30,048 bases of DNA, from positions 1 to 30,048 of IMG/VR virus record IMGVR_UViG_3300035698_004475; one strand, written 5' to 3'. Shown here in pieces: positions 7,409 through 17,008 of this stretch. Below the pieces are notes generated by a model, which saw only the letters and a program-made list of their open reading frames with translations, was not told where the DNA came from and ran no database searches. Within the stretch, counting starts at the first letter, position 1. Each line of letters begins with the position of its first letter. A program made the translations under genes and the position numbers. This DNA comes from a virus.

Positions 7409-8386
7409 CTAATTGCTATCTGTGCCGCTGCTCGATGCGGCTGCCATGATGCGGCGACCGATCCATTCGGCACACGGCACAGCTACCGCATTTCCGCACA
7501 TCCTGTACCTGGCACTGTCACTGTGGCCTTCTGTATGCCCATCTGGGAATCCCTGAAGACGTTCGCACTCCATTGGGGTCAATCTCCGGACGCCGACGCC
7601 AGCCACAATATTCGACGGTCTGCTGGGTCGATTCTCTCCCTCTGCCCGTAGCGTCCCGGCGATGTCTGATTGATTCCACCAACCGGGTCCAGTGCAATGA
7701 CCGGCGACTAGGTGATTCGCTTGTGCATCGTTGTCATCCGGCCCACCCGTTTTCTTGGTCAGACACCCAACTATGTGCTGCGCCTCATTGTCACCGTAGT
7801 GGCTGGTGGTTATGGGTGCGGTGACTAGATTGCTATTCCATCCCTGTGGCATCCCAGAGCGCGGACGGACGGAATGGGCGACAATTGGCGTCCCCCTACC
7901 AGTTCCGTCCTCGCTCGCGTCAAACCCATCAGCTGTCAGCGTGTGGGCAATATCGCCATTTACTCCGCAACCGCTCGCAGAGCCTCGGCTAATAGTGGCG
8001 GCAACTCGCGTCCCCGTTTCTCGGCTCGGCGGAGAATCCCACGCGCCGCTCTCGGACTCAAATAATACTTGGGCTGCACATCCGTCTCCAAGACTTCCGA
8101 CAATGAACACGCGGCGCCGTCGCTGGGGTACTCCAAAGAATTGAGCGTCAAGCACTCGCCATGCCGATAGATACCCGAGTTTCGCCAACCCTGAAAGGAC
8201 GGTGGCAAAGTCGCGCCCGCCGTTACTGGATAGCAAGCCGGGGACGTTCTCGATAATAACCCATCGCGGCCTAATCTCTGCAAGAACTCGATAGAACTGG
8301 AACCAGAGCCCGGATCGCTTTCCAGCCAGTCCTTCGCGGCGTCCGGCAACTGATACGTCCTGGCATGAGTTATGGGAACCCGCCAC
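7409..8386 (-). pseudogene. C5-cytosine DNA methyltransferase, catalytic and C-terminal part, separated from its N-terminus by a frameshift
   Basis: This frame encodes the second half of a Dcm-type enzyme: CQDVSVAGRREG (motif IV, catalytic Cys8 in this frame), VIIENVPGLL (motif VI, ENV at 46-48), AQFFGVPQRRRRVFIVGSL (motif VIII), a target-recognition region of about 150 residues, and a C-terminal GNAVAVP (motif X). The SAM-binding N-terminus lies in another frame (to 9092). The two halves would join as GGFP-CQ, but seven extra bases (TAACTCA on the minus strand, about 8369-8375) bring in a stop and shift the frame. Translation from the GTG at 8386 would lack motif I, so methylation is unlikely unless the frameshift is an assembly error or is bypassed. 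This half itself shows no other damage, suggesting the lesion is recent. Confidence 0.75.
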
Positions 8387-9092
8387 AAATCAAGTTGACT
8401 TGCGTGAGTTCCCTTAGCACCTCCTTTTGTTTCGCCTTGTTTTCTCTGTGCCATTCGTGATGACATTTCTGACATAGCCAGTTCACCTCCAGTGGTTTGT
8501 TGTAGTCTGCGTGATGGGCCTGAATGCGAGAACGTCCATCTCGCATTGGTTGAGGAGAAATCCCGCAGTTGTCACACTTTTCAGGGCGTACAAGAATACT
8601 GTTTCTCAGAGCGTATTCAACTATGTTCTGCGCGCGATCGTCTGCTTTTGTTCCCCCTCTGTGAAAATGATTGTCTTTTCCATACCGCTCTCTCGGTCGC
8701 ATTTCCGTGCGGCGCCGAAGCAGGTCCCACATAGACTGCCTTGACACTCCAAAATATTCAGCAATTGGCCCACACGCCAGGCCGCTCCTGTATAACTTGA
8801 CCGATTCCTCCGCCTGTTCCGGTGTTAGTTTCTTGAGTTTGCCAGCCATTTCTATCTCCTCTTTAGTATATTCATCACCAAGAGGATGATACCATGTCCT
8901 GACAAGGCTGTCAAGGTATGCCGAACTATGCAGTTGCCGAATGTCTCCCAATTGAGGCACGTCTGGCCAATGGCGATTGAGGACGGCCTGACAGTTCGTG
9001 TCAATCTCGCTATGCCATGCGCACTCCATCCCGGTCCGCTCAAGGCCAAGGTCCAGGCCGCCGATGCCGGCGAACAGGCTACCGAATCTCAT
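8370..9092 (-). CDS. N-terminal part of Dcm fused in frame to an HNH homing endonuclease
   Basis: Residues 1-56 are the start of a C5-cytosine methyltransferase: MRFGSLFAGIGGLDLGLE (SAM motif I), HSEID, and LGDIRQLH. The frame then enters an insertion encoding an HNH endonuclease and returns to methyltransferase sequence only for the last dozen residues (LTQVNLICGGFP) before TAA. The endonuclease has its own ATG at 8849 (AGGAG 7 nt upstream) and its own promoter (8886-8914), giving 159 aa. It has a helix-turn-helix (AIAEYF-type: GPIAEYFGVSRQSMWDLLRRR), then CDNCG, AHHADY and CQKCHHEWH, the zinc-supported HNH core. So the free-standing product ends in host-gene sequence. The insertion is lower in GC than its surroundings, consistent with transfer. 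Confidence 0.8.
   Translation of the reverse strand: MRFGSLFAGIGGLDLGLERTGMECAWHSEIDTNCQAVLNRHWPDVPQLGDIRQLHSSAYLDSLVRTWYHPLGDEYTKEEIEMAGKLKKLTPEQAEESVKLYRSGLACGPIAEYFGVSRQSMWDLLRRRTEMRPRERYGKDNHFHRGGTKADDRAQNIVEYALRNSILVRPEKCDNCGISPQPMRDGRSRIQAHHADYNKPLEVNWLCQKCHHEWHRENKAKQKEVLRELTQVNLICGGFP
8886..8914 (-). promoter_or_regulatory. Internal promoter for the HNH gene inside dcm
   Basis: On the minus strand TTGACA (8909-8914) is followed after 17 bp by TATCAT (8886-8891), about 37 bp before the HNH ATG at 8849. The -35 overlaps a short inverted repeat (TGACA/TGTCA), a possible operator. The element lies at the start of the inserted DNA. Confidence 0.65.
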
Positions 9093-10538: not shown

Positions 10539-11436
10539 TTTGCTTTACCTTGAACCATGCGTCTTTGACCATCCGTTTAGCCTCGCCTTCGTACACCTCG
10601 CCAATCCTTGGCCAGCTCAGGTTATTGACGACCCGTTGCAGATAGGCGTCATCAAACCTCGGCGTCCACCGGCTGCCGTGCTGGGTCATGGCAAGCATGA
10701 TCGCGTCGGTGTCGGCTCCGATGTCGCGGGCTGGCGCGCGGGGGGAAGCGCGGTTGTTGGTGTTCCATGCGGCGATGCTATTAGTCAGGTCGCCAATCGC
10801 CCAAACCCCTTTGGTCAAATAATGGTCTGCCGCTTTCTTGAACTCCTCAACCCCGAGGCGCGTTTCGGCCGTCTCGAGTTTGCGTTTCTGGCGTAGCGTT
10901 TTGAATTTCTTAGCACCACGTCGCTTTCTGGTATTGTTCTCGTTGTATTCGGATACCTCTCGAGTGATTTCTTGAAAGAGCCATTCAGTCATTTTTGTTT
11001 CTGGCATATAGGATGATTTACTGACGGTTAAGGATGATTCGGGTGACACAGTTACGTCACCCTTTTCTGCCACCGCTGTCACCCTTTCTTCCTCAGGTGT
11101 CACCCTTTCTGGATTATGGTGACATTCTGACACCCTTTCCGCTTCCGGTTGCCATTCCCAGTTATAGCGCCATCGGTTCATTCCGCGCCCACGGCTACCG
11201 CTTAGATGTACGTAACCATCGGCAATCAGTAGGCCAAGGCTCTCGAGCCGTCGTGTTCTTCGTTGGACGGTGCGTTCCGAGTACCCGGTTTTACTGGCGA
11301 CAGTCGCCACGGCCGGATAAATGCTTCTGCCGTCGCTGTCTGAGTGGTCTACATAGGCCAATAGAATAAACTTGTCCTGTGGCTCAAGGCGTTCGTCTTG
11401 GATCTGGAATACGTGCGCGACGGCTTTAATGCTCAC
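10531..11436 (-). CDS. Phage replication initiator with N-terminal winged-helix domain
   Basis: The chosen start is GTG 11436 (VSIKAVAHVF), which overlaps the stop of the upstream HNH gene as GTGA and restores the usual MSIK-x-x-xHV-type N-terminus. An earlier GTG at 11448 exists. Residues about 15-75 form a winged helix-turn-helix (DKFILLAYVDHSDSDGRSIYPAVATVASKTGYSERTVQRRTRRLESLGLL) of the HTH_36 type found in phage replisome organisers. The middle (about 95-140) is low-complexity and is encoded by repeated iterons. The C-terminal half is helical, with GVEEFKKAADHYLTKGVW and a basic tail, a plausible helicase-loading region. The helicase gene follows directly. The architecture parallels lambda O and DnaD-like initiators. 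Confidence 0.8.
   Translation of the reverse strand: MSIKAVAHVFQIQDERLEPQDKFILLAYVDHSDSDGRSIYPAVATVASKTGYSERTVQRRTRRLESLGLLIADGYVHLSGSRGRGMNRWRYNWEWQPEAERVSECHHNPERVTPEEERVTAVAEKGDVTVSPESSLTVSKSSYMPETKMTEWLFQEITREVSEYNENNTRKRRGAKKFKTLRQKRKLETAETRLGVEEFKKAADHYLTKGVWAIGDLTNSIAAWNTNNRASPRAPARDIGADTDAIMLAMTQHGSRWTPRFDDAYLQRVVNNLSWPRIGEVYEGEAKRMVKDAWFKVKQNG
11041..11138. repeat. Iteron cluster inside the initiator gene, probable phage replication origin
   Basis: Four copies of a 10-bp element occur: GTCACCCTTT at 11056-11065, 11078-11087 and 11099-11108, and GACACCCTTT at 11129-11138. The first three are spaced 21-22 bp, two helical turns. Inverted GGTGAC elements lie at 11042-11047 and 11118-11123; GGGTGAC (11041-11047) forms a perfect inverted repeat with GTCACCC (11056-11062). 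On the coding strand they translate as recurring ERVT/ERVS. The flank 10921-11040 is AT-richer than its surroundings and would serve as an unwinding region. Iterons within the initiator gene are the lambda-O style of origin. Confidence 0.7.
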
Positions 11437-12152
11437 GGCTTGGTCCACACGTCAATTAACTCGCGCGCCTGCTTGACGCAACCTACCGCATACTCGCCAT
11501 CCTTGAGGGGATACTCATACTCAATCGTCTTGACACCCTTGCTTGAATTGCATGATTGGCAAAGCGGTTGAATGTTATCTATTGCGTCCCGGCCACCATT
11601 GGCAAGCGCGACAATGTGGTCAGCGGCCAGCGGCTTTACTTCGCCACAGGCTAAACACCGGCCCCCGCTCATGGTGCATAGTTGGGCAAACTGCGCGTCA
11701 GTGAAACCGCCCCCGCTGGCGTTCGCCTCTAACGCTCGGCGGCGGCGGCGGGCGTCCCTCACTTTCTCGCGATTGGCGTCACGCCAGCGGCGGCCATTTT
11801 CCCTTGTTTTCTCGGGATTGGCGGCCTGATAGCGCCGTCTCTGCTCTTTTGCCCTCTCAAGATTTGCGGCATACCAGCGCTTGTTGTCTGCCTTTATCTT
11901 CTCAGGATTGGCGTCCCGATAGCTCTTTGCGATCGCCCTTGCTTTCTCGGGATTTGCGGCGAACCAGCGTTTCGTGTTCACCTTTGCTTTCTCAGGATTT
12001 GCGGCGTGCCAGCGCCGTGCGCTTTCCCTACCGCAAACCTTGCAATAGGAGCGCCGGCCATCCGGCCTATCCTTTCGCCGATAGAACTCAGAAAGCGGCT
12101 TGACCTCTCCGCACTTGGAACACTGTTTGCTATGGGGAGTTTTTGACATCAT
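11433..12152 (-). CDS. HNH endonuclease with N-terminal zinc ribbon and tandem ANPEK repeats
   Basis: This 239-aa protein has three parts. Residues 11-40 form a zinc ribbon (CSKCG ... CKVCG). Residues 47-136 are six tandem 15-residue repeats of the form RWxAANPEKxxxxxK, very basic and likely a DNA-binding helical array. Residues about 165-210 are the HNH core (CLACGEVKPLAADHIVALANGG...NIQPLCQSCNSSKG). Such proteins are typical mobile homing-type nucleases. The start ATG 12152 overlaps the previous stop; the end overlaps the replication initiator (GTGA). It appears wedged between the AP2-HNH gene and the initiator, replacing the initiator's own ribosome site with translational coupling. Confidence 0.85.
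   Translation of the reverse strand: MMSKTPHSKQCSKCGEVKPLSEFYRRKDRPDGRRSYCKVCGRESARRWHAANPEKAKVNTKRWFAANPEKARAIAKSYRDANPEKIKADNKRWYAANLERAKEQRRRYQAANPEKTRENGRRWRDANREKVRDARRRRRALEANASGGGFTDAQFAQLCTMSGGRCLACGEVKPLAADHIVALANGGRDAIDNIQPLCQSCNSSKGVKTIEYEYPLKDGEYAVGCVKQARELIDVWTKP
11745..12014 (-). repeat. Six 45-bp coding repeats (15-aa RWxAANPEK units)
   Basis: Six consecutive 45-bp units encode RWHAANPEK, RWFAANPEK, SYRDANPEK, RWYAANLER, RYQAANPEK and RWRDANREK, each followed by six mostly charged residues. DNA similarity between units (GCGGCxAATCC(T/C)GAGAAA) shows they arose by tandem duplication and are now diverging. Confidence 0.85.
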
Positions 12153-12646
12153 CGCGCCTCGTCTGTGAAATTGAGTATCGCAAACTCGCCATGATGTTCG
12201 ATGGCGGCGCGGTCGCGGGCCAGAGCAGCTTCAATGGGGGTGGGGAATAATCCTAGATAGACCCGTCTGTCATTTACCTTTATACTAGCCCGCCATCGCG
12301 TTCTGTCCTTTTTGACGCCACGATAACCAGATATGCCAACTTTGTGTCTTGGACTGTTTTGTGCATTTTGGCTGCGTGTTGCTGTTCTGATATTGCATTT
12401 TCGATTGTCTAACGTGTTTCCGCTTGCATGATCCACAAGCAGTCCGTCGAGATCGTCACCGTGCTCCTGAAGAATTGCCCGGTGCATATACAGTGATGTT
12501 CGCTTTCCGTTGTCTCTTCTTACATTTCGCATGGCGTAAAACTCGTAGGAGTTTTCCCTAGCGTACCATTTATGCTGCATCAGCCACTCGAAATCGTCGT
12601 CATCAACGATGGCGACCTGACCTTGAGTTAGTGGAATCTGTTTCAT
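12149..12646 (-). CDS. AP2-HNH homing endonuclease, copy A
   Basis: This 165-aa protein starts at ATG 12646 after AGGAGGG. Residues 1-50 hold the IPLTQGQVAIVDDDDFEWLMQHKWYA module typical of these nucleases. The HNH core follows (MHRAIL...LLVDHASGNTLDNRKCNIRTATRSQNAQNS, about 54-100), and residues 106-160 form an AP2 DNA-binding domain (SGYRGVKKDRTRWRASIKVNDRRVYLGLFPTPIEAALARDRAA). A close paralog lies at 16350-16856. Both are preceded by a promoter and a structured leader, so each seems to be an independent transcription unit. The stop overlaps the next HNH gene (ATGA). Expected activity: site-specific DNA nicking or cleavage that spreads the gene. Confidence 0.9.
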   Translation of the reverse strand: MKQIPLTQGQVAIVDDDDFEWLMQHKWYARENSYEFYAMRNVRRDNGKRTSLYMHRAILQEHGDDLDGLLVDHASGNTLDNRKCNIRTATRSQNAQNSPRHKVGISGYRGVKKDRTRWRASIKVNDRRVYLGLFPTPIEAALARDRAAIEHHGEFAILNFTDEAR

Positions 12647-13550: not shown

Positions 13551-15356
13551 TTATACCACCTCAACCTCTGCGAACATCCCCGCGTCGTCCCTGATCCTCT
13601 GCGCCGCCATCTCTGCGTATTCGGGGTTAAGCTCTATCAGGATGGCGTCCCGGCCGAGCCTGTCAGCGACGAGTCCGGTAGTCCCAGCGCCACCAAATGG
13701 GTCTAGGACGGTGCAGGGGATCGGGTCTAGCGGTACACCTTCCAACTCGCCGACGTCATTTGGGCCGCCGTAGCTTGCATCGGATGGGTATGTCGAGCAT
13801 GAGCAGGTGGGTGCCCAGCCGGTGGTGGTGGATTGTCTGCTTGAACCATTGCCATGGCCGCCCGCGCAGTTTATTCCCTGATTGGCTGGATTCTTTGCGC
13901 TGAAACCCAATCGTGTGGCTTTTTGGCGATTGGTTTCTCCCGTCTTTTCTACCACCCGCTTCCACGCCGCCCCGCACACCGGGCAGCACCCCTTCTCAGA
14001 TGTCCCAGCTTTGATGCACGGCTCCACGAGCGCGGGGGGAAATGTGGCGAAATGTGCGCCCGGGAATCCGCGGGTTGAGATTAGCCAAACGGATCTCCTG
14101 GTTGCAGTAGGCGAGCGCCCTTCTTGGCGTTGCATGTCCGGCACGACGGGACAACGTTCTCTGCCGTGTGCGCTCCCCCCTTGCTCAGAGGAATAACATG
14201 ATCCATCTCTAACCGCTTCATCCTCCTGCCGCAGTAGGCGCAGCGATGGCGGTATTGAATCTTTAGCTGTTCCCATTCCGCTTTGGTCAGGGTGCAGTCC
14301 TGAGATTGTATCGCGTGCTTTCTCTTGACGGCTGTCTTGTGTTTGGAAAACTTGCCCTTGGCTGTCGCTGTGTATCTGGCATCCTTTTCCGCTTTCTTTA
14401 GCTTGCCCTTTGCGCTTTGCCAATATCTTCGTTGACGTTCTTTGTACTTCGGTTTCTTCTCGTGTTCCCTTGACGCTATCCGGCGTCGTTCCCTCATTTC
14501 TGGAGTAATCTTGTAATTGCTCTGGTATGCTTTTTTGGTCGCTTGTCCCTTCTCCGAATAATAATAACGTTTCCAGGCAGCCCTTGCCTTCTCCGAGCGA
14601 TTGTATTTGCGATCCCATGCCTTGCGGTTGATTGACATGCAATTCTTGCACGAGCCTGTCAGGCCGTCCTTCTGTTGGTTGTTCTTGTTGAACTCCGTCA
14701 GCGGTTTCTCTTGCCCACATTTGTTGCATGTCTTGGTTTTCATAGTTCTCATTATACTCGTGGGATTCCGTATTGTCAAGTCTGTCTGCAACGGCATAAG
14801 AGTCAAAAAAGTATCGTGGAGATTTGGTTAACAAGAACAGGTATTCGTGAGATTTACAGAACCGATCGCGTACACTTTCCGGCATCGCTGATCCCTTGCG
14901 AATGCTCCCGCTTACCGCCTTGGCCCAAATAATATCTTGGCGCAACCACCAGCCGTCCGCTTGCAGCGCCAGGGCCACGCGCCATGGGATGCCGATTAGG
15001 TCTTTGGGTTTGAGACCTGCTGGAACTGTGGTTGAACCAAGGTTTGCCAGGCCGCGGCGGGTATTGCCAACTTGGGCAGATTTGCCCGATGCCGTATGTC
15101 CACCATTGGCGGCGTAAGAATCGCCCAGATTGAGCCAAACTGTGCCGTCCGATCTAAGCACCCGCCGCACCTCTCGGAACACTTGCACCAGATTGGCGAT
15201 GAACTGTTCGGGCGATGACTCGAGGCCGAGCTGGTCGCCCACGCCGTAATCCCTCAAGCCCCAGTAGGGCGGGCTAGAAACGCACATCTGGATAGACTCG
15301 GCCGGTAGCGATGGCAGCACGTCCAGGCAGTCGCCTGTTATGATTCGGACGCTCAC
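13551..15356 (-). CDS. DNA methyltransferase (beta class, SPPYW) with an HNH gene inserted in its middle
   Basis: This 601-aa frame starts at GTG 15356, overlapping the previous stop (GTGA). N-terminal residues 28-32 are SPPYW, motif IV of N4-cytosine-type methyltransferases, and the C-terminus has DPFGGAGTTG (552-561, motif I for SAM), followed by AILIELNPEYAEMAAQRI. A zinc-ribbon-like CCPVCGAAW lies before the C-terminal region, as in relatives. Residues about 195-425 do not look like a methyltransferase: they are the alternative reading of an HNH gene (14081-14743) lying in another frame on the same strand. Normal sequence stops at FFDSYAVA and resumes at RRSVWLISTRGFPGAHFATFPPALVEPCI. The frame stays open throughout, so a methyltransferase with a 230-residue foreign insert could be made. 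Relatives are usually about 300-400 aa. Confidence 0.8.
   Translation of the reverse strand: MSVRIITGDCLDVLPSLPAESIQMCVSSPPYWGLRDYGVGDQLGLESSPEQFIANLVQVFREVRRVLRSDGTVWLNLGDSYAANGGHTASGKSAQVGNTRRGLANLGSTTVPAGLKPKDLIGIPWRVALALQADGWWLRQDIIWAKAVSGSIRKGSAMPESVRDRFCKSHEYLFLLTKSPRYFFDSYAVADRLDNTESHEYNENYENQDMQQMWARETADGVQQEQPTEGRPDRLVQELHVNQPQGMGSQIQSLGEGKGCLETLLLFGEGTSDQKSIPEQLQDYSRNEGTTPDSVKGTREETEVQRTSTKILAKRKGQAKESGKGCQIHSDSQGQVFQTQDSRQEKARDTISGLHPDQSGMGTAKDSIPPSLRLLRQEDEAVRDGSCYSSEQGGSAHGRERCPVVPDMQRQEGRSPTATRRSVWLISTRGFPGAHFATFPPALVEPCIKAGTSEKGCCPVCGAAWKRVVEKTGETNRQKATRLGFSAKNPANQGINCAGGHGNGSSRQSTTTGWAPTCSCSTYPSDASYGGPNDVGELEGVPLDPIPCTVLDPFGGAGTTGLVADRLGRDAILIELNPEYAEMAAQRIRDDAGMFAEVEVV
14081..14743 (-). 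CDS. HNH endonuclease nested inside the methyltransferase gene
   Basis: From ATG 14743 this 220-aa protein has a zinc ribbon (CNKCGQEKPLTEF...SCKNCMS), a Lys/Arg/Tyr-rich middle with diverged repeats (KARAAWKRYYYSEKGQATKKAYQ), and an HNH core (HRCAYCGRRMKRLEMDHVIPLSKGGAHTAENVVPSCRTCNAKKG). It resembles the ANPEK-repeat HNH protein in plan. The longer frame to 14806 has no site. A perfect consensus promoter ends 7 bp before the ATG, so the mRNA may be leaderless. The last residues (QPGDPFG) and stop lie in methyltransferase exon sequence, as with the HNH in dcm. The segment is visibly AT-richer than its surroundings. Confidence 0.85.
   Translation of the reverse strand: MKTKTCNKCGQEKPLTEFNKNNQQKDGLTGSCKNCMSINRKAWDRKYNRSEKARAAWKRYYYSEKGQATKKAYQSNYKITPEMRERRRIASREHEKKPKYKERQRRYWQSAKGKLKKAEKDARYTATAKGKFSKHKTAVKRKHAIQSQDCTLTKAEWEQLKIQYRHRCAYCGRRMKRLEMDHVIPLSKGGAHTAENVVPSCRTCNAKKGARLLQPGDPFG
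14751..14779 (-). promoter_or_regulatory. Consensus promoter for the nested HNH gene
   Basis: On the minus strand TTGACA (14774-14779), 17-bp spacer, TATAAT (14751-14756): both hexamers and the spacing are ideal. The ATG at 14743 is about where transcription should begin, and no Shine-Dalgarno could fit, which suggests leaderless translation. Confidence 0.85.
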
Positions 15357-16234: not shown

Positions 16235-16350
16235 TCGTCCTCCCCGTGTCGTCCTTCCTCCCAGCTCGCGAAGGCCAGGATGGCGCCGGCGGCTAGAAGA
16301 ATAATTACACCTGCCGCGCTAGTGAGTGCTATTGCTACGGTGACGCTCAT
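16231..16350 (-). CDS. 39-aa single-span membrane protein
   Basis: ATG 16350 overlaps the stop of the AP2-HNH copy B gene (TGATG), with GGAGTG just upstream. One span (VAIALTSAAGVIILLAAGAILAF is close to the helix) is followed by SWEEGRHGEDE. The stop overlaps the 43-aa gene by ATGA. It resembles the 43-aa and 34-aa peptides in layout. Confidence 0.6.
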   Translation of the reverse strand: MSVTVAIALTSAAGVIILLAAGAILAFASWEEGRHGEDE

Positions 16351-16856
16351 CATTCACTCCTGTGATCGTCTGGAAAATTCAGGACGGCAAACTCACCGTG
16401 ATGCTTGATGGCAGCCAGGTCACGGACGCGGGCTGCTTCTTCGGGGGTGTCGTATGTGCCGAGGTGAATGTTGCGGTCATCTACGCTAATGCCGGCTTGC
16501 CATTTTTCGAGGCTAGTACGAACACCTCGATACCCAGATTCACCGACTTCGTGCTCGGGACTGTTGTACGAGTTCTGGCTATACGTTGCCGGTCTAATAT
16601 TGCATTTGCGGTTATCTAGCGTGTTGCCGCTTTTGTGATCCACCACCAATCCATCGAGATCAACTCTATGCCTTAGTAAAATTTCCCTGTGCATAGATAG
16701 TGTCGTTTTCTTACCGTTGCTTTTTCTTACAGATCGCGTGGCGTAGAAATGCTCTCTCTTTCTAGCGGCTTGCCATTTGTGCTGTGACAGCCAGAGAAAA
16801 TCCTCGTCATCGACTGTGGCGACATGGCCTTGCGTCAGGGGGATTGTTCCACTCAT
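16350..16856 (-). CDS. AP2-HNH homing endonuclease, copy B
   Basis: ATG 16856 has GGAGGTGTT upstream; the open frame to 16925 runs into the structured leader and lacks a site. The 168-aa protein is closely related to copy A: IPLTQGHVATVDDEDFLWLSQHKW, the HNH core MHREILL...LVVDHKSGNTLDNRKCNIRPATYSQNSYNSP, and the AP2 domain SGYRGVRTSLEKWQAGISVDDRNIHLGTYDTPEEAARVRDLAAIKHHGEFA. It has its own promoter (17015-17042) and leader RNA, and is followed by a coupled 39-aa membrane gene. It is the upstream member of an operon that includes the methyltransferase at 13551-15356. Confidence 0.9.
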   Translation of the reverse strand: MSGTIPLTQGHVATVDDEDFLWLSQHKWQAARKREHFYATRSVRKSNGKKTTLSMHREILLRHRVDLDGLVVDHKSGNTLDNRKCNIRPATYSQNSYNSPEHEVGESGYRGVRTSLEKWQAGISVDDRNIHLGTYDTPEEAARVRDLAAIKHHGEFAVLNFPDDHRSE

Positions 16857-16878
16857 AACACCTCCAATCGAACACGCA

Positions 16879-17008
16879 ACAGCCCAGCCGTTTTTGATCC
16901 GGGGGTGTTGAGGCCACCAGGACATAACAATGCGGCTGGGCTGTGGGGTACTCGATTGATGAATGTATTGTTGTTCATTGACATGTCCTAAACTCTAATA
17001 GCCTCAAC
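16879..17008 (-). ncRNA. Structured leader RNA B with 5'-end pseudoknot, upstream of AP2-HNH copy B
   Basis: The predicted first bases of the transcript, GTTGAGGC (17001-17008), are complementary to GCCTCAAC (16907-16914) in the loop of a hairpin whose main stem is 12 perfect base pairs: ACAGCCCAGCCG (minus strand, 16933-16944) with CGGCTGGGCTGT (16879-16890). An inner GGTG/CACC stem (16915-16918 with 16904-16907) carries that loop. Compared with leader A, pseudoknot pairs 3, 6, 7 and 8 change on both strands together. No T-run follows here. The ribosome site of the endonuclease lies just downstream. Confidence 0.7.

Follow-up and report, generated by a model that had tools for sequence, protein, structure and literature searches.

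Programmed translational bypassing in phages has so far been represented by one well-studied case, gene 60 of bacteriophage T4. There the mRNA has a 5′ stem-loop; take-off is from a GGA codon followed by a stop, and landing is on another GGA across a 50-nt gap. The gene is split by a homing endonuclease, and the gap may have protected it against the nuclease (PMC5009743, PMC11194080). According to a 2016 review, in-frame stop hopping had no known natural instance (PMC5009743). In the synthetic stop-hops of Weiss et al. (1987) a nine-nucleotide codon-stop-codon sequence was read as one amino acid (as reviewed in PMC5009743). In the mitochondria of Magnusiomyces capitatus the ribosome skips short inserts in many genes, in a manner that seems independent of mRNA context (PMC5009743).

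We have analyzed a gene for a C5 cytosine methyltransferase (MTase) in viral DNA from IMG/VR (record IMGVR_UViG_3300035698_004475); the whole stretch that was analyzed, 30,048 nt in length, is called the window. On its minus strand the open reading frame 9092–8370 runs from the MTase N-terminus (MRFGSLFAGIGGLDLG...GDIRQL) through an HNH open reading frame and on to RELTQVNLICGGFP, where it meets TAA. The HNH sequence is in frame with the MTase at both of its ends. The features of the locus, in their order along the minus strand, are these.

8932–9092, minus strand: N-terminal part of the C5-cytosine MTase, motif I FAGIGG to ...GDIRQL (translation; Pfam DNA_methylase 8.2e-13)
8886–8914, minus strand: promoter of the HNH cassette, sigma70-like TTGACA-17-TATCAT (sequence match)
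8414–8849, minus strand: HNH endonuclease, ATG at 8849 with GAGGAGATAGAA before it, comprising an HTH part and the HNH finger QAHHADYNKPLEVNWLCQKCHHEWH (translation; phrog_2340 1.1e-19)
8420–8425, minus strand: Shine-Dalgarno-like AGGAGG between the HNH end and the hairpin (sequence)
8374–8413, minus strand: predicted RNA hairpin GGGAACTC-ACGCAAGTCAACTTGATTTGTGGC-GGGTTCCC, whose 3′ end falls within the take-off codon (folding, covariation, model R1)
8373–8375, minus strand: candidate take-off codon CCA, the Pro of GGFP (sequence)
8370–8372, minus strand: TAA stop adjoining the take-off codon on its 3′ side (sequence; the same codon is a stop in 22 of 24 loci)
8366–8372, minus strand: 7-nt insert TAACTCA relative to intact MTases (intact relatives have no insert)
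8366–8368, minus strand: putative landing codon TCA, followed by TGC (Cys) (sequence)
7409–8365, minus strand: MTase C-terminal region, beginning with the catalytic Cys (CQDVSVAG...) and reaching motif X (Pfam DNA_methylase 2.8e-45)
7960–8475, minus strand: overlapping open reading frame in frame +1 of the C-terminal MTase part, also found in intact phage MTases (ORF comparison)

The gene has the features of a C5 cytosine MTase (PF00145, motif I, PCQ, ENV and the C-terminal motifs), with the P and C of PCQ split at the DNA level by the insert. The site reads GGG TTC CCA TAA CTC ATG CCA GG, so that TAACTCA (8372–8366) separates GGFP from the segment with the catalytic Cys, CQDVSVAG, whose frame is open as far as 7409. 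The segment between HNH and stop is colinear with intact enzymes, and an intein was set aside on this ground. The landing codon TCA is one base off CCA, and could pair with the Pro UGG anticodon through one G-U pair. The insert of HNH sequence is assigned to a PHROG endonuclease family and contains an HNH domain, while Pfam returns only HTH_7, below cut-off. Its own ATG is preceded by the ribosome-binding-like GAGGAGAT and by the near-consensus promoter listed above. The original prediction had described an HNH insert in frame within a Dcm-type MTase, followed by rejoined MTase sequence, a TAA, and seven extra bases at the catalytic PCQ. The translation and the Pfam and PHROG matches confirm the insert, and the rest is exact to the base.

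The stop recurs at this position in other phages. A search with the N-MTase-HNH protein as query, followed by one with ten aligned relatives, gave 30 loci in IMG/VR; the stop played no part in either. Twenty-four distinct loci, the window included, carry an insert of 6, 7, 8, 9 or 10 nt between GGFP and CQ (11, 8, 1, 3 and 1 loci, respectively). Uninterrupted relatives, which the original prediction had proposed should be sought, do exist, and in these the Pro and Cys codons adjoin with nothing between them. The stop lies directly 3′ of the take-off codon in 22 of the 24, as TGA (13), TAA (6) or TAG (3). The two exceptions are L093, where it comes one codon further on, and L098, whose insert lacks a stop in frame 0. 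What the loci have in common is a stop and its flanking codons, whereas the reading frame and the identity of the stop codon vary. In 23 of the 24 loci HNH interrupts the MTase in frame, the remaining one being L094, with HNH upstream of the MTase gene and CAT instead of CCN at the take-off position. Identical copies were recovered from separate metagenomes (L085, L086 and L087; also L083 and L084).

Scans with the patterns GGNTTCCCNTGACCNTGYCAR and GGNTTCCCNTARCCNTGYCAR, of the CCN-stop-CCN-TGC type, gave 20 and 18 contigs, mostly C5-MTase genes, about 25 distinct ones having no HNH inside. A control scan with TTT replacing TTC gave 10 contigs and a single MTase. These HNH-free examples come from a pattern that demands CCN-stop-CCN, so that the unbiased loci are the first 24 only. 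All HNH-free examples to date share the in-frame 6-nt form, and among the pattern matches the 7-nt form with a Pro landing codon is confined to HNH-bearing cases (p = 0.006). An HNH-like gene lies just upstream in only two of the HNH-free cases (L163 and L164), and two genes (L158 and L171) retain the post-HNH linker of L085 with HNH itself absent. At one locus (L109, 3560–3715) HNH is closed by a stop of its own, and the tail of the MTase lies in a different frame. This locus still has the hairpin, GAAACTCGCCAG..CTGGCGGGTTTC, as well as a stop that follows CCG, and its Phe codon, TTT, is matched by A in the other arm; the contig ends too early to show the rest of the gene.

Stop-bearing genes occur at scattered positions in the MTase tree, and a single origin is ruled out by the trees. 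We saw no stop-bearing site in the cultured phages Toutatis, Beem, BS-TP4, Porphyromonas 018a, Lc-Nu, DotProduct, Llama, Rebeuca, Tweety and Hades. No stop was seen in Thibault or Diva, though in these two the pattern matched no GGF-P-CQ site that could have been assessed. About 1190 bacterial genomes from three phyla contained no stop-bearing site, the three weak model matches there being two intact MTases and one unrelated site.

The codons on either side of the stop are constrained. In the unbiased set take-off is from CCN in 23 of 24 loci, and the codon before Cys (TGC) is CCN in 15 and one base off CCN in the other nine (TCA, ACA, CTG, ACG, TCG). The window, with CCA/UCA, is one of the near-matches. 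CCC is never the take-off codon in 51 stop-bearing genes, compared with 10 of 29 intact genes, and the ratio of TTC to TTT for the Phe codon is 50:1 in stop-bearing genes against 15:14 in intact ones. Both wobble positions, TTC for Phe and a take-off codon other than CCC, fit the bypass reading.

Folding of 50-nt windows reveals structure just 5′ of the stop, with a mean z of −2.9 in HNH-free and −2.3 in HNH-bearing genes, compared with 0.0 in intact genes. The same folding shows none 3′ of the stop, and on this basis a stimulatory structure on that side was rejected. The 3′ arm of the hairpin is the sequence coding for GGF and mostly reaches base 1 of the take-off codon; the 5′ arm is drawn from the variable linker. 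A helix of 7 bp in fixed register is found in 40 of 51 stop-bearing and 2 of 29 intact genes (p = 2e-10); when the upstream sequence is shuffled the mean is 3 and the maximum 9. Over 23 sequences the covariation score is 0.279 against 0.125 for shuffled sequences (0/500), and no slid control exceeds 0.092. In the same sequences 94% of hairpin cells pair, a percentage that leans upward through the choice of the 5′ arm by best fit, for which the control is the intact genes treated in the same way. In a gapless set of eight with no HNH inside the MTase all cells (100%) are paired. Pair 8 occurs there as A-U, G-C, U-A and C-G, that is as all four Watson-Crick types, and the coded residue (FG[ST][HRLS]W) changes along with it. 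The hairpins include U-G pairs in the mRNA sense, which points to an RNA element rather than a DNA palindrome. The hairpin of the window (8413–8374) has a free energy of −19.6 kcal/mol in its 7-bp form (z −5.0, 0/200 shuffles), and matches model R1 with 51 bits (E = 1e-15), the window copy being itself one of the 23 rows of R1. We conclude that the stop site is almost certainly a selected, conserved element made up of RNA structure and codons.

From these features we infer that the site works by ribosome hopping, a programmed translational bypass of the stop within the catalytic PCQ loop of phage C5 MTases, and we would put the probability of this reading at about 0.6. The ribosome would melt the hairpin whose 3′ arm codes for GGF, and would pause with peptidyl-tRNA(Pro) on CCN and the stop codon in the A site. 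Re-formation of the hairpin behind the ribosome would favor forward movement, and the anticodon would release CCN and pair again with a Pro or near-Pro codon 6–10 nt downstream, directly before TGC. The predicted product is GGFP-CQ lacking any residue coded by the insert. Where no hop occurred, termination would release N-MTase(-HNH)-GGFP. GGFPCQ is restored at every gap length (6, 7, 8, 9 and 10) by a hop that takes off from CCN and lands on the codon preceding TGC, and since all of these lengths occur, neither readthrough nor a fixed frameshift can serve them all. The 6-nt loci have no ATG, GTG or TTG in the stretch from the stop to Cys, so that a C-terminal half made by re-initiation would lack the catalytic Cys.

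The downstream frame keeps codon-position rates like those of an MTase, at 0.35/0.27/0.54 in HNH-free and 0.36/0.25/0.50 in HNH-bearing genes, against 0.33/0.24/0.45 in an intact set of slightly higher identity. Because the stop allele is scattered on the tree, the intact downstream frame may in part be inherited from before a recent gain. The C-terminal part is shortened in 8 of 44 stop-bearing compared with 1 of 29 intact genes (p = 0.08, L161 and L172 being taken as complete on inspection), and from this excess some stop-bearing copies are probably dead. The window has an atypical, 7-nt version with near-matched codons, in which bypass would need a +7 move to near-cognate UCA. Its efficiency is uncertain, and the chance that this copy is efficiently bypassed falls a little short of even.

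The HNH lies just 5′ of the hairpin. Sigma70-like promoters with 10–12 of 12 matches occur at about the same place in 12 of the 24 loci and in 2 of 57 controls (p = 2e-6), and HNH has its own promoter in about half of the loci. On the MTase tree HNH is polyphyletic, scattered among uninterrupted genes with empty sites and a patchy distribution, and L085 and L100 have HNH sequences that are 95% identical with C-terminal MTase parts that are 66% identical; the cassette is therefore mobile. Like phage HNH homing endonucleases of the phrog_2340 kind it combines an HTH part with an HNH finger, has its own promoter, sits in a conserved gene and is patchily distributed. What sets it apart from them is that its reading frame matches that of the host gene at both ends and that it is coupled to an element of hairpin and stop. 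The obvious candidate for the site cut by the nuclease is the conserved sequence coding for GGFPCQ, which the insert would disrupt. On the best reading the bypass element travels partly with the HNH homing cassette.

A link between the insert and homing, which the original prediction had proposed, is probable, and it could also arise without hopping if HNH invaded GGFPCQ, a small insert blocked re-cleavage, and the MTase was lost. Such nuclease-resistant dead alleles would agree with the mobility and polyphyly of HNH, with the contrast between L085 and L100, and with the C parts shortened in 8 of 44. They leave unexplained why the stop occupies one codon in 22 of 24 loci as any of three stop types between Pro codons, why the hairpin covaries and includes G-U pairs, why HNH is in frame on both sides in nearly all cases, and why about 25 genes without HNH have C parts that are mostly intact. 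We regard this explanation as unlikely, though worth keeping in view. Ordinary readthrough of the stop, giving GGFP-X-P-CQ, would suit the HNH-free cases, so far all with an in-frame 6-nt insert, and the restriction of the 7-nt pattern matches with Pro landing to HNH-bearing genes. Inserts of 7, 8 and 10 nt, that of the window among them, would however leave the frame, and two residues ahead of the catalytic Cys would likely be harmful. Stimulators of readthrough normally lie 3′ of the stop, and the structure here is 5′ with none seen 3′; the second Pro codon would also have no reason to be there. Readthrough is accordingly improbable. In the window an open reading frame led by GTG (8386–7409, MAGSHNSCQDVS) could in principle provide the C part of a split MTase of two polypeptides by re-initiation. 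This is very improbable, as the 6-nt loci offer no in-frame ATG, GTG or TTG after the stop and ahead of Cys, and a later start would cost the catalytic Cys. A shift at the stop into the overlapping +1 frame, open in almost all loci, would generate a different fusion protein. Depending on the insert (6–10 nt), that frame stands in any of the three registers with respect to the incoming frame, and the shift-prone CCC is never the take-off codon, leaving this equally remote.

The original prediction had instead taken the seven bases for a tiny duplication that breaks one gene, left by imprecise repair of nuclease cleavage, with assembly error as the caveat. The CAT direct repeat noted there is present at the ends of the seven bases, but it is peculiar to the window copy. 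A stop at the same codon in some 50 phage MTases is not a one-off. Three stop codons, inserts of 6–10 nt, flanking Pro or near-Pro codons and a covarying hairpin, with HNH or without it, are not what a repair scar would leave, and the imprecise-repair route is unsupported. Twenty-three further distinct contigs, some of them identical copies from several separate metagenomes, exclude assembly error for the pattern. As a general account an accident in one gene is refuted, and it has scarcely any probability left. Splicing of the two halves, which would have spoken against a broken gene, finds no intron to act on: Rfam gives no match to a group I or II intron, either at the gathering threshold or at E<5, and the HNH reading frame fills nearly the whole insert. 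Joining is most likely brought about by the ribosome. An alternative genetic code or a suppressor was rejected as all three stops are in use.

The element proposed here shares with T4 gene 60 a stop directly 3′ of the take-off codon, matched flanking codons and a 5′ mRNA stem-loop, and also a gap within the coding sequence of a gene hit by a homing endonuclease, where the gap is thought to be protective. It differs in a gap of 6–10 nt rather than 50, in the use of Pro rather than Gly, and in a hairpin lying directly against the take-off codon, a departure from the exact layout in T4. The gene here is a DNA methyltransferase, and the putative examples are many and lie in unlike genes. The nine nucleotides of codon-stop-codon are those of the synthetic stop-hops, but the MTase elements are natural and have a conserved hairpin. 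That hairpin, and their presence in phages rather than mitochondria, also separates them from the bypassing in M. capitatus, with which they share short skipped inserts. It is quite possible, if a shade less than probable, that they form a widespread and repeatedly acquired class of natural stop-hops (hairpin plus CCN-stop-CCN) that keeps the enzyme along with an allele resistant to the nuclease; ribosome hopping would then have settled an arms race with homing endonucleases, and the class would be the first phage family of its kind beyond T4 gene 60. Some 50 short, covarying natural examples would be a comparative set from which to learn which of hairpin, stop, matched codons and spacing matter. 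They would give a minimal ribosome-hopping system, and would test the idea that bypassing is a cure for the targets of homing endonucleases. Gene callers would split such MTases into two broken genes, so that they are easily misread as pseudogenes.

The +1 frame downstream of the catalytic Cys is open for about 140–275 codons in phage C5 MTases (7960–8475, minus strand, in the window; L002–L081 and L113–L144). It is open in essentially every intact gene checked (47 and about 24), where the +2 frame is usually closed. The +1 frame was rejected as the cause of the stop, being equally open in intact genes. Some genes provide it with its own Shine-Dalgarno sequence and ATG (L043). In Paenibacillus phage Diva its annotation is 'g49 internal gene', and in Porphyromonas phage018a it is the sole 'hypothetical protein' annotated at the site.

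The window phage seems rich in mobile nuclease genes. A second MTase gene, of the N6/N4 type (13551–15356, minus strand), holds an HNH gene in another frame (14081–14806, minus strand), and the MTase frame is open across it. By eye, the junction has a perfect-consensus sigma70 promoter (TTGACA 14779–14774, TATAAT 14756–14751), and there are more HNH-like open reading frames at 11433–12152, 12149–12646 and 16350–16925 (minus strand). In Mycobacterium phage Llama (L220, 1556–1572) an MTase is annotated as two overlapping genes, gp74 and gp75, with a frameshift after the ENVAALLVRG motif; phage Hades has one MTase open reading frame where Llama has this split.
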